Part shown: positions 29,048 through 58,439 of the stretch, one piece after another
Position numbering within the stretch: position 1 is the stretch's first letter
Layout: the number at the start of each line of letters is the position of its first letter
Made by a program: the position numbers and the translations under genes
From: Tessaracoccus palaemonis
GTDB lineage: Bacteria > Actinomycetota > Actinomycetes > Propionibacteriales > Propionibacteriaceae
DNA length: 64,000 bases
Direction of reading: 5' to 3'
Assembly: GCF_019316905.1 (NCBI RefSeq)
Contig: NZ_CP079216.1
Location: 2,046,001 to 2,110,000, forward strand
The notes under the pieces: model-generated
Told to the model about the DNA's origin: nothing
Databases searched by the model: none
The model's input: only the letters and a program-made list of their open reading frames with translations

Positions 29048-29059
29048 GCCGTGCTCGGT

Positions 29060-29270
29060 CGTGAGGTGCCCATCCCGGTTCGCCGAGCCCTTCGACCAGC
29101 TCAGGGAACCGGTTCGTTGAGCACTTCGACCAGCTCAGCACACCTGTCGAGGTGCCCATCCCGGTTCGCCGAGCTTGTCGAGGTACCCATCCCGGTTCGC
29201 CGAGCTTGTCGAGGTACCCATCCCGGTTCGCCGAGCTTGTCGAGGTGCCCTGAGCGCAGCGAAGGGAAGT
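29060..29270. repeat. Repeat cluster with a 31-bp tandem array between coaE and the HNH gene
   Basis: Three head-to-tail 31-bp units lie at 29146-29176, 29177-29207 and 29208-29238, differing by one base (GTGCCC or GTACCC). A partial fourth begins at 29239 and a partial upstream copy is at about 29060-29088. They are flanked by CTTCGACCAGCTCAGGGAACC (29090-29110, palindrome-like) and a CCCTGAGCGCAGCGAAGGG element (29247-29266). No unique spacers separate the units, so this is not CRISPR. Confidence 0.85.
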
Positions 29271-29297
29271 CAGCCGCTCCGTGCTGGACGGAGGCTG

Positions 29298-31313
29298 TCA
29301 GCCGCAGCGTGCGAGGTCTGTGGCGTCGGCGATGGTGTCGCACCAGTCCTGGATGGTCCTCTCGACGGGGCTGAGCTGTGGGCCGAGGTCGGGGGTGCAT
29401 TCCAGCCACGCGCCGCCGCTGGTGACCTCGTACACGTAACCCAGGGGGCTGGTCCACCGGAAGTGGCCCGGCGCGATCTGATTCAGCACCCAGGCGCCCT
29501 TGGTCTTGCCACGGTGGACGCGGCGGCAGAGCTGGGCCAGGTTGTCCAGCCGGGTCTGGCCGGGGCGACCGGGCTGATAGGTGGTGTTGTGGTCGATGTC
29601 CAGGCGGCGGGTGCGGGTGGAGAACGGGAAAGCCTCCGTGGGTCGCAGCAGCCGCAACGCTTTGCGCATCCGCCGAGTCGGCCGGTACCCGTCGGCCGGC
29701 TCCATGTTGTTCAGGTCGATGACGGGCTGGACCTTCAGGATGATCTCCCCGTTGCGGTACCCGTCTCCGAGCAACTCGCCGAGCAGCGCGGTGGTCAGGG
29801 TGTCGGCGCGCTCGACCGATGCGACCAGGTCAAGGGTTCCGTCCGCGTCGGCGGTGATGTGCACGACGATCTCCACCCTCGGCAGCGGGGACGACGGCTC
29901 GCTGAGCCTGTCGAAGCGCCCTGAGCGCAGCGAAGGGTCCCGGCTCCGGTCGAGCGTCTCGTCAACGCTGGCCATATCGGAACGCACTGCGTGGGGCGGT
30001 GGGTCCTCGCCTCGCTCCGCTCGGCGCCCTTCGACGAGCTCAGGGAACCGGTAAGGCGGCTCAGGGGGCTGGGGCGGCTCAGGGAACCGGAGCGGCGGCT
30101 CAGGGAACCGGTCGGGTCGCGACGTGTCCCGTGTCTCGCCTCGCTCCGCTCGGCGCCCTTCGACGAGCTCAGGGAACCGGGTCGGCTCAGGGGGCTGGGT
30201 CGGCTCAGGGAACGGGGGCGGCTCAGGGAACGGGGGCGGCTCAGGGAACCGGTCCGACTCAGGTGAAGTGTCGGGTCGCCGAGCACTTCGACGGGGCTCA
30301 GCACATGCCTGTCGAGGCGCCTTGAGCGAAGCGAAAGGACCACCCCCAACCGAGTGATCCAGCCGTGGATCGTCGGGTGGCTGCCAGTCGGGAGGCTCAT
30401 CGTCAGGGAACGGGGGCTCCTCGTCCTCGTCAGGTGGCTCCACTGCCAGCGGCAGCTCGAGGACTGAGGGCCGTGCGGCCGTGCCGATGTCCGACTCGCT
30501 GCAGGGACTGTCCCAGTCGATGCTGAGGGCGGGCTGGTCGGCGGAGAGGATGGTGAGCAGCAGGTCTGGGTTCATCGCCAGGGACAGGGCCTTCGCCCGC
30601 CGCGCTGAATGATCCAACCCCGGATACCGGTCCCGCAGTCGTTCAGAGATTCGGTGCAGGCGTTCGTCGACGATCCTGCCGTCCAACACATCAAGGCGCC
30701 CGCCGATGCTCGTGACACCCGGCTCCAGATCGCGCAGCCACACCCCACGCCGCGCCCGGGCCTCGGCCTCCCGCTCCCGCGCGGCGGCCGCGTCGACGCG
30801 GATGATCAGCTTCTTCAGTTCCCCCAGCGCGGCGCTGGGGACCAGCCCGTACTGCCTGGGCAGCCAGCGCGCGGTGACGGTCTCGGCCTGCATCGGATCC
30901 AGGTCCCGACACAACCACGCGGCCCTGGCTGCGAGCCACGATTCGACTTCACCGTTGATCACGGCCTCGAACAGCATCGGGTGGCGATACTTCAAGTTCA
31001 GGGCGGAGGCGATCTTCTCGATCGCCGCGGTCTGGGAACACCGCAGCAACGCGGCGACCTCCATCGCCAGGAACTCCGACACACTCGGGGTGCCTTCCCC
31101 GCCGGGGTGGACCAGCTTCTCGGTGAGTTTCGTGTCGCGGTCCCGGTAGATCTCGGTCCCGTAATCCAGCAGGTCCGCCTCGTCCAGGCGGTAGGCCAGG
31201 GCGAGGTCGCAGATGGCCTCCAGTTCCTCGGCCTCGCCACTGCGGCGCAGGGCGACACCTGCGCGGAGGCGGTTGGTCGCCTGCCGGGAGTCGTCGCGTC
31301 GCCTGCTTTCCAT
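29298..31313 (-). CDS. DUF222 / HNH endonuclease domain protein (13E12 type) with repeat-invaded linker
   Basis: A 671-residue protein. Residues about 20-290 are the helical DUF222 (13E12) region. The C-terminal HNH nuclease-like motif is at about 570-605, with IDHNTTY, DNLAQLC and the final HRGKTK. Between them, about residues 320-475 form a low-complexity Pro/Glu/Arg linker built from the DNA repeats described here. It includes two copies of RFPELVEGRRAERGE and many FPEPP units. The frame is intact, so either the insertions were kept in register or the linker is tolerated. The related REP13E12 genes of M. tuberculosis are multicopy and serve as prophage integration sites. TAGCGT lies 7 nt before the ATG. 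Function is unknown. Confidence 0.85.
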   Translation of the reverse strand: MESRRRDDSRQATNRLRAGVALRRSGEAEELEAICDLALAYRLDEADLLDYGTEIYRDRDTKLTEKLVHPGGEGTPSVSEFLAMEVAALLRCSQTAAIEKIASALNLKYRHPMLFEAVINGEVESWLAARAAWLCRDLDPMQAETVTARWLPRQYGLVPSAALGELKKLIIRVDAAAAREREAEARARRGVWLRDLEPGVTSIGGRLDVLDGRIVDERLHRISERLRDRYPGLDHSARRAKALSLAMNPDLLLTILSADQPALSIDWDSPCSESDIGTAARPSVLELPLAVEPPDEDEEPPFPDDEPPDWQPPDDPRLDHSVGGGPFASLKAPRQACAEPRRSARRPDTSPESDRFPEPPPFPEPPPFPEPTQPPEPTRFPELVEGRRAERGETRDTSRPDRFPEPPLRFPEPPQPPEPPYRFPELVEGRRAERGEDPPPHAVRSDMASVDETLDRSRDPSLRSGRFDRLSEPSSPLPRVEIVVHITADADGTLDLVASVERADTLTTALLGELLGDGYRNGEIILKVQPVIDLNNMEPADGYRPTRRMRKALRLLRPTEAFPFSTRTRRLDIDHNTTYQPGRPGQTRLDNLAQLCRRVHRGKTKGAWVLNQIAPGHFRWTSPLGYVYEVTSGGAWLECTPDLGPQLSPVERTIQDWCDTIADATDLARCG
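29902..29937. repeat. Palindrome-rich dispersed repeat inside the HNH gene, copy A
   Basis: It reads CTGAGCCTGTCGAAG then CCCTGAGCGCAGCGAAGGG, the same two-part element found at 29247, 30278 and 31548. It is coding in the HNH gene (PSLRSGRFDRLSEPS on the minus strand). Confidence 0.75.
30006..30051. repeat. 46-bp direct repeat inside the HNH gene, copy 1
   Basis: Identical to 30135-30180. It ends in CTTCGACGAGCTCAGGGAACC. The two copies are 129 bp apart (43 codons), so both are read in the same frame and encode FPELVEGRRAERGE. Confidence 0.9.
30135..30180. repeat. 46-bp direct repeat inside the HNH gene, copy 2
   Basis: The second identical copy. Both copies are followed on the plus strand by runs of GGCTCAGGGAACCGG-like units (30052-30120 and 30181-30255) that encode the FPEPP repeats. 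Confidence 0.9.
30278..30338. repeat. Dispersed two-part repeat inside the HNH gene, copy B
   Basis: It contains GAGCACTTCGACGGGGCTCAG, then CTGTCGAGGCGCCTTGAGCG and AAGCGAAAGG. This is a diverged version of the elements at 29247, 29902 and 31548. Confidence 0.65.
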
Positions 31314-31547
31314 GACACTAACGCTACGACCCGCCACCGACACTTTTCGCACGCCCGTCTGAATTATCCACAAGCCGCGTGGTCGTCGTCGGCTGTCACT
31401 TTCCCCGGGGCCTCCTCGATTCCGTGCACAACGATGCGTATTTCCGGGCCGCTGTTCCCATGTTGCAGCGGTCCCGGTATAGGCATCTTTGTGCCGGAAA
31501 GGGGGACGGGGGTGGGTGGGAACCGGGGTGGGCTCAGGGGACCGGAC
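31314..31547. other. Intergenic stretch upstream of the HNH gene, no gene seen
   Basis: The first bases hold ACGCTA (31321-31326; TAGCGT on the minus strand), 7 nt from the HNH gene start, the leaderless pattern. The rest up to the repeat element at 31548 shows no open frame with coding character, tRNA or terminator that I can support. Confidence 0.5.
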
Positions 31548-31726
31548 TTCCCTTCGCTTCGCTCAGGGCCCTTCGACAAGCTCAGGGAACCGGGCACACT
31601 CAGGGAGCCGGGCAAGCTCAGGAACCGGGCAAGCTCAGGGAGCCGGGCAAGCTCAGGAACCGGGCACACTCAGGGAGCCGGGCAAGCTCAGGAACCGGGG
31701 CTCAGGGAACCGGGGCTCAGGGAACC
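31548..31726. repeat. Dispersed repeat followed by 35-bp and 15-bp tandem arrays
   Basis: A full two-part element (31548-31593) with CCCTTCGCTTCGCTCAGGG and CCCTTCGACAAGCTCAGGG is followed by three 35-bp tandem units at 31592-31626, 31627-31661 and 31662-31696. Each contains two CTCAGGRA(R)CC cores. Two 15-bp units follow (31697-31711, 31712-31726). The array lies between the HNH gene and the rpsA terminator. Confidence 0.85.
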
Positions 31727-31742
31727 GGGGTGGCCGCAAACG

Positions 31743-31780
31743 GCTGAGGCGCCGATCCCCGAAGGGATCGGCGCCTCAGC
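31743..31780 (-). terminator. rpsA terminator
   Basis: A perfect 16-bp stem (31743-31758 with 31765-31780) and a 6-nt loop lie 18 nt after the rpsA stop. Confidence 0.85.
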
Positions 31781-38001: not shown

Positions 38002-38084
38002 GCCCGGGTGGCGGAACGGTATACGCGGACGGCTCAAACCCGTCTGGTCGAGAGACCTTAGGGGTTCGAATCCCCTCCCGGGCA
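38002..38084 (+). tRNA. tRNA-Leu (anticodon CAA)
   Basis: An 83-nt type II tRNA. The acceptor stem GCCCGGG (38002-38008) pairs with CCCGGGC (38077-38083). The anticodon arm GACGG-CTCAAAC-CCGTC gives anticodon CAA, reading UUG. A long variable arm (TGGTCGAGAGACCTTA region) and the T-arm GGGGTTCGAATCCCC are present. The encoded 3' end is A-CC-T, so the CCA tail is not fully encoded. Confidence 0.93.
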
Positions 38085-57879: not shown

Positions 57880-57920
57880 CCGCCTCGATCCTTCGCTCGC
57901 CTTGCTTGTGCGTCTCCTGC

Positions 57921-58003
57921 CGCCCGCTGGTTTCCTTCCGGGCCGGGCCTGACATCGGGGAAGTGACGTCAGGGCCGGGACCGGCCGGAAACCACCGGGC
58001 GGG
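57921..58003 (-). ncRNA. Long hairpin in the mraZ-rsmH leader (mraW RNA motif candidate)
   Basis: The arms CGCCCG/CGGGCG and GGTTTCC/GGAAACC, then a further GTCAGGGCC/GGGCCTGAC stem with one mismatch, fold this 83-nt stretch into one long interrupted hairpin. It begins one nt after the mraZ stop and ends about 40 nt before rsmH. An mraW RNA motif has been described in actinobacterial leaders of this gene, and this is a candidate for it. I cannot run a covariance model. Confidence 0.5.
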
Positions 58004-58004
58004 T

Positions 58005-58439
58005 TCACGTGCCCGTGAAGGCCGTGAACTCTCCGTCCATGTCCGAGAAGTCCGACTCCTGCTCCTCGGCGTACCTGTTCCACGTCTCGGCGTCCCAGAT
58101 CTCGGCGCGGTCACCCGCCCCGATCACCACGACGTCCCGCTCCAGCCCCGCATAGGCACGCAGGTGGGGAGGAATGGTGACCCTGCCCTGGGAGTCGAGC
58201 CTGTCGTCGCTGGCCGCGGCCATCACCATGCGCTGATAGCTGCGGACCTGCCTCAGGGTGTTGGGGGCGGAGGCGAGGTTCGACATCTTGTTCAGAAAGT
58301 CGGCCTGGGGGTACACCGCGAGCGCGTGCTCCTGGGACTTGGTCATGACCAGCCCGTCGGCGAAAGCGTCACGGAACTTGGCGGGCACGATGAGGCGGCC
58401 CTTGTCGTCGAGCTTCGGCGAGTACGTACCGAGAAACAT
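58005..58439 (-). CDS. mraZ: Transcriptional regulator MraZ
   Basis: A 144-residue AbrB-like DNA-binding protein with two tandem MraZ repeats. The first opens [23 protein letters not shown] (about residues 1-23, with the D-x-KGR-x-x-P core) and the second has the parallel [14 protein letters not shown] (about 83-96). In E. coli MraZ forms a ring and represses its own dcw operon through repeated boxes. The start at 58439 has an AAAGGGGG ribosome binding site. Six box-like repeats lie upstream. Confidence 0.95.

Follow-up and report, generated by a model that had tools for sequence, protein, structure and literature searches.

In mycobacteria, multicopy DUF222-HNH genes lie in dispersed repeat units, REP13E12, whose copies exchange sequence. 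PMC13061034 describes the REP13E12 loci of M. tuberculosis as gene-conversion hotspots and their use as a phage attachment site as putative, and a passage of PMC10589994 flags REP13E12 as repetitive. Rickettsia palindromic elements (RPEs), about 150 bp long, are translated in frame within many unrelated genes, according to an excerpt of PMC10969869. In REP/RAYT systems (REPtron), as outlined in part of PMC3733652, short repeats reach high copy numbers and some of them adjoin a gene.

The locus described here lies in a 64-kb stretch of the genome of Tessaracoccus palaemonis (G000), referred to as the window, and was compared with the sister genome G010. Like REP13E12 it contains a member of a multicopy DUF222-HNH family with signs of exchange between copies; in contrast to REP13E12, the coding linker holds a repeat that occurs genome-wide, and a 69-nt hairpin is located upstream. 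As in RPEs the repeat is translated in frame, but the unit is shorter, no folding was seen in the tested copies, and those in-gene copies that we looked at lie in linkers of DUF222-HNH genes. From REP/RAYT it differs in that 39 genomes yielded no Y1 transposase, the tested copies form no stem-loop and most repeat clusters lie away from the gene. The open-licence literature that we searched contained no description of the repeat or of a link between repeat and nuclease.

The locus is probably, although we hold this with some reserve, a unit of a multicopy 13E12-like DUF222-HNH family whose linker was entered by an independently multiplying interspersed repeat, which was then copied with the gene. 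Genes of this type occur in several copies both in the genus and in M. tuberculosis, where they form the REP13E12 loci; here a protein linker is built from interspersed DNA repeats with both flanking domains under purifying selection.

The window gene, its repeats and the hairpin

The gene is read without interruption on the minus strand from an ATG at 31313 to 29298 (671 aa; the mechanical ORF, of 691 aa, extends to 31373). That it stays open, as the earlier note had stated, is correct but weak evidence, because five of the six frames of the 19-bp repeat core are free of stop codons. A DUF222 domain (PF02720; 34.1 bits against a cut-off of 24.4, E 2.4e-8) occupies residues 101-243 of the 691-aa ORF (30645..31073, minus strand). 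The HNH-type motif (DH ... N ... H; 29514..29594, minus strand) scored 12.5 bits with Pfam HNH, below the cut-off of 21.4. Its residues are nonetheless conserved: in an alignment of 27 relatives, chosen from the loci at hand and leaving out the broken copies L029, L074 and L084, D574, H575 and H600 show no variation, and conservation of N591 is at least 90%. The protein carries DUF222 and is a putative DNA-cutting enzyme of the HNH type. NCBIfam and PADLOC yielded no family for the protein, a profile of the 27 relatives matched no solved structure at E 0.1, and the search among phages gave no match. Among plasmids three records were found, with partial matches to the HNH end. The proline-rich variable linker (214 aa; 29883..30524, minus strand) consists mostly of repeats translated in frame.

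The repeat is made up of A sites (TTCGAC-N1/2-GCTCAG) and B sites (GAGCGNAGCGAA). Six A and four B sites are present in the window, compared to 0.02 and 0.08, respectively, expected from 50 first-order random sequences, and all of them fall within 29091-31585. The repeat thus lies where it was first noticed, inside the gene and on both sides of it, and does so far above chance. Two identical 46-bp copies on the plus strand (30006..30051 and 30135..30180), spaced by 129 bp, are located in the linker and both translate as RFPELVEGRRAERGE in the frame of the gene, in exact agreement with the initial reading. The linker contains two further plus-strand copies: an A+B copy at 29895..29937 (repeat family D6), 88% identical to the copy at 29224, and one at 30271..30338 (families D4 and D6), which was expected near 30278 and is indeed present, but degenerate. 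Two arrays lie on the plus strand. The one downstream of the gene (29059..29271) consists of A cores and tandem units of 31 bp and ends in an A+B-like copy; upstream, an A+B copy is accompanied by decayed tandem units of 17-18 bp (31519..31728). GTAG, the terminal tag looked for by comparison with REP/RAYT, was seen by eye next to some of the repeat copies, not consistently.

One claim did not hold for the copies tested. The repeats had been called palindromic, yet four copies from the window folded no better than shuffled DNA (z -0.28 to -1.17). The true palindrome, overlooked in the earlier note, is a near-perfect 69-nt hairpin on the minus strand (31426-31494; z -5.75, none of 200 shuffles being as good). 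It precedes the ATG by about 110 bp and belongs to a dispersed family. In 15 copies, 96.8% of the cells are paired and three pairs are changed on both sides; Rfam gave no match at this position at gathering thresholds. With a model of the 15 copies, and up to 130 candidates scored in each genome, the 39 genomes of the genus contained at least 74 strand-matches in G000, at least 54 in G010 and at least two in G008, besides at least seven weak matches over three further genomes. Among the 38 hairpin places listed for G000, seven are near the six units of the family described below and 31 have no subfamily copy; 25 of the 38 have a core of the repeat no more than 2 kb away, compared to 8.0% of random points. 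A clean empty hairpin site was sought in G010 at 540-580k and gave no match. The hairpin looks like a MITE-like family that shares its islands with the repeat: with MITE-like palindromes it has in common a near-fixed length, inverted ends, dispersal and a size too small for a gene of its own.

Other structured elements were seen in the window. A perfect inverted repeat of 17 bp, its arms separated by a 4-base loop (31743-31780), lies between the unit and an rpsA-like gene and is terminator-like. Elsewhere, Rfam identified an mraW cis-regulatory RNA (57908-58010) and a tRNA (38002-38084).

Copies of the family in two sister genomes

The G000 genome has 24 DUF222 matches and six close 13E12-like DUF222-HNH copies including the window gene, so that the multicopy nature of these genes was borne out. 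Over their N-terminal parts, the other five copies share 84-88% identity with the window protein. About five subfamily copies, whole or in pieces, are present in G010, and 33 of the 39 genus genomes have some match to the window protein, at lower identity in those other than G000 and G010. The frame is intact across both domains in five of the six G000 copies and shifted in the 879k copy.

All six copies have A/B sites within the gene and downstream of it, the bounds of the broken L029 being approximate; four of them also have such sites upstream, and L028 and L025 do not. When 10-kb stretches were compared, similarity to the window took in the gene and both arrays for the 2127k and 879k copies (with the 2127k paralogue the common array-gene-array block covers 29143..31714, minus strand; with 879k almost as much); for the other three it took in the gene and a smaller part of the arrays. 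The proposal that the repeat spreads with the gene is supported in part: repeats accompany all six copies, inside and downstream, and two paralogues share the whole block.

The gene is enclosed by inverted arms (29222-29271 and 31545-31594) that are 90% complementary, and these 50-bp repeat copies could be the ends of a composite transposon moved by an unlinked transposase. However, the ends of homology vary among the six copies, and two of these have no upstream A/B site. A composite transposon with fixed ends was rejected for want of common ends, and we regard this origin in general as very improbable.

Four loci are common to G000 and G010: 623k, 1448k, 2127k and 879k, the last by its left flank only; its right flank has a single 26-bp match in G010. 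The 1760k copy is situated in a variable region and adjoins a tRNA-Val. A search for a rearrangement involving both the 879k and the 1760k copy found none. In G010 the 1448k copy is internally deleted and the 2127k copy is broken. The locus of the window itself is represented there by a gene remnant with eight copies of the linker unit, 158-182 bp apart (L085 10926-12130). At another place a unit and a further open frame in G010 face some 200 bp of different sequence in G000, and the two genomes cease to be homologous at the end of a hairpin that both contain. Next to this unit, which only G010 has, lies a stretch that by eye resembles a small secreted protein and is missing at the G000 place (L083 10960-11830). 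With copies that are intact, broken, present or absent in two close genomes, the question of spread and homogenisation becomes testable.

Both domains are under purifying selection: in 11 pairs each, dN/dS was 0.075-0.125 in the DUF222 part and 0-0.34 in the HNH part. The flanks at the shared loci are 93-96% identical between the two genomes. At three of the four loci the copies have diverged more than their own flanks: same-locus identity of the DUF222 part was 0.877 (1448k) and 0.889 (879k), and that of the HNH part 0.919 (1448k), 0.903 (879k) and 0.927 (2127k). This suggests gene conversion between copies. In the DUF222 tree the G000 copies L028 and L029 (support 0.98) and the G010 copies L081 and L084 (0.88) group together instead of by locus, and in the HNH tree the three G010 copies form a group (0.79); supports span 0.07 to 1.0 and the other branches are weak. 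Exchange is not general, because the 623k pair are plain orthologues (0.942 for DUF222, 0.978 for HNH) and because L025 from G000 and L083 from G010, which occupy different loci, group across the genomes in the HNH tree (0.889). We read these patterns as partial concerted evolution similar to that reported for REP13E12 of M. tuberculosis.

A possible interpretation is that the protein is a homing-like nuclease. It would cut sister copies or sites without a copy, and repair would copy the unit in, with the repeats and the hairpin serving as shared homology or landing sites. The conserved active-site residues, a multicopy gene under purifying selection, the signs of exchange (in line with the hotspots described for M. 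tuberculosis, PMC13061034) and the copy that G010 has and G000 lacks, with the break at the hairpin end, are consistent with this. Yet gene conversion works without a dedicated nuclease. Moreover, 31 of the 38 listed hairpins and 55 of the 61 clusters have no subfamily copy, and the G000 place is not a clean empty site because of its 200 bp or so of other sequence and the extra open frame in the G010 insertion. The nuclease may act in a homing-like way; as the explanation of the locus we consider this unlikely. To the fuller version we give a small chance: here DUF222-HNH proteins would drive both the exchange and the spread of their own gene among repeat islands, with landing sites marked by the repeat or by the 69-nt hairpin, and the recurrent linker entries would be a by-product.

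Abundance of the repeat in relation to the nuclease genes

The earlier note had proposed that the HNH protein may act on the repeat, spread with it or be targeted by it, much as RAYTs relate to REPs. In a partnership of this kind the protein would mobilise or maintain the repeat. Association within G000 speaks for such a partnership: all six units are packed with the repeat and near a core, compared to 9.9% of 20,000 random intervals. Because of their common ancestor, however, the six units count as one event in this test. Two of 11 other DUF222 genes in G000 were near a core, the bounds of several of these genes being approximate. Four weak DUF222 matches (L019, L020, L021, L023) did not enter the test; their frames are 403-423 aa long (three of 403 aa), show a weak DUF222-like stretch of 21-24 bits and perhaps represent an insertion sequence.

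Seen from the side of the repeat, the association is much looser. The 14-bp core occurs in 164 exact copies in G000 and its reversed control in none. Among the 154 cores listed, which form 61 clusters genome-wide, 24 cores and six clusters are found at the six units, at a distance of no more than 1.5 kb.

Across the 39 genomes of the genus, five contain 214, 164, 148, 81 and 31 cores and the remaining 34 contain 0-3. By comparison, 11 genomes with at least eight DUF222-HNH matches (about two per gene) have no more than three cores, as for example G017, G021, G024 and G027 with 23, 14, 18 and 13 matches and 0, 0, 2 and 0 cores, respectively. Conversely, G006 has 31 cores and none of its six located DUF222-HNH genes is near one, and G007 has 148 cores and neither of the two genes read, each with 10 kb around it, has one within 3 kb. 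In G002 one of three located genes has cores, 0.2 kb downstream. Cores and DUF222-HNH matches were weakly correlated across the genus (Spearman 0.32, p 0.044), but not when G000 and G010 were left out (0.20, p 0.24).

The search for a Y1 (IS200/IS605-type) or RAYT-type transposase gave no hit in the 39 genus genomes, with a control search that detects 5 of 14 known genomes. This leaves the role of a mobiliser vacant, which together with the packed units, the G002 gene and a distant DUF222-HNH gene whose linker also holds the repeat (see below) would suit the partnership. Against it stand the counts in G006 and G007, the gene-rich genomes with 0-2 cores, the 55 of 61 clusters apart from the units and the lack of a REP-type hairpin in the folded copies. 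A partnership between element and nuclease is not supported, and the repeat seems independent of the enzyme. As the main reading it was dropped on the genus-wide counts, and we judge it improbable.

In a sample of 298 genomes of the phylum, the core exceeds 10 copies only in G000 and G241. In the latter, from another family, it occurs 22 times with different flanks (L145-L147), a patchy distribution. A 51-bp stretch of the repeat had no match among plasmids.

Entry of the repeat into linkers

In eight aligned close copies the linker measures 98-214 aa, and all of them carry repeats, with one to six sites in the gene. In 19 other proteins of the genus it measures 0-345 aa and none contains the repeat. 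The linker is hypervariable with or without the repeat, as these ranges indicate. The suggestions that it is variable or absent among relatives and that repeat insertions are tolerated there are both in agreement with this. One relative (L043 412-2745) has a repetitive-looking linker of 345 aa with no copy of the window repeat.

A second case was found at 1254k, in one of the two other DUF222 genes near a core. It is a distant DUF222-HNH gene that is 39-49% identical to the window protein over matched parts. A core and tandem 18-bp-like units lie exactly in its linker. The G000 gene (L032 3999-5509) is frameshifted and read in two frames; the orthologue in G010 (L151 1204-2690) has a single uninterrupted frame of 495 aa and carries the repeat at the corresponding position. 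Where the two could be aligned, their identity is about 90%. The G010 counterparts of the 1081k and 926k genes have no repeat. At 1254k the repeat came in separately from the six-copy family, and linkers have thus been entered at least twice. By simple arithmetic (61 clusters, 3.2 Mb, 11 linkers of about 150 bp) approximately 0.03 linker entries are expected by chance. Therefore some affinity of the repeat for DUF222-HNH linkers beyond tolerance is possible. Tolerance of in-frame inserts in the linker, with removal elsewhere in genes, explains the 1254k gene, and targeting is the alternative. On account of this gene we rate our preferred explanation slightly lower, and the partnership slightly higher, than we would have otherwise.

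According to the preferred explanation, that of a repeat multiplying on its own, the linker would be the target because in-frame inserts are tolerated there, and not because the nuclease multiplies the repeat. The repeat would have entered the disordered-looking linker of the family ancestor and, separately, that of the distant gene. It would then have been copied along with the gene when blocks were duplicated, possibly aided by repeat homology, and the copies would keep exchanging sequence through gene conversion. Points that weigh against this account are the two separate linker entries, the closeness of most listed hairpins to cores, the 623k pair and the L025-L083 grouping, and the weak correlation over the genus. 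Within the linker the arrays may have grown by slippage or unequal recombination. Growth in place is seen in the 1254k array, which in G000 exceeds that of the G010 orthologue by 27 bp, and in the eight-unit remnant in G010.
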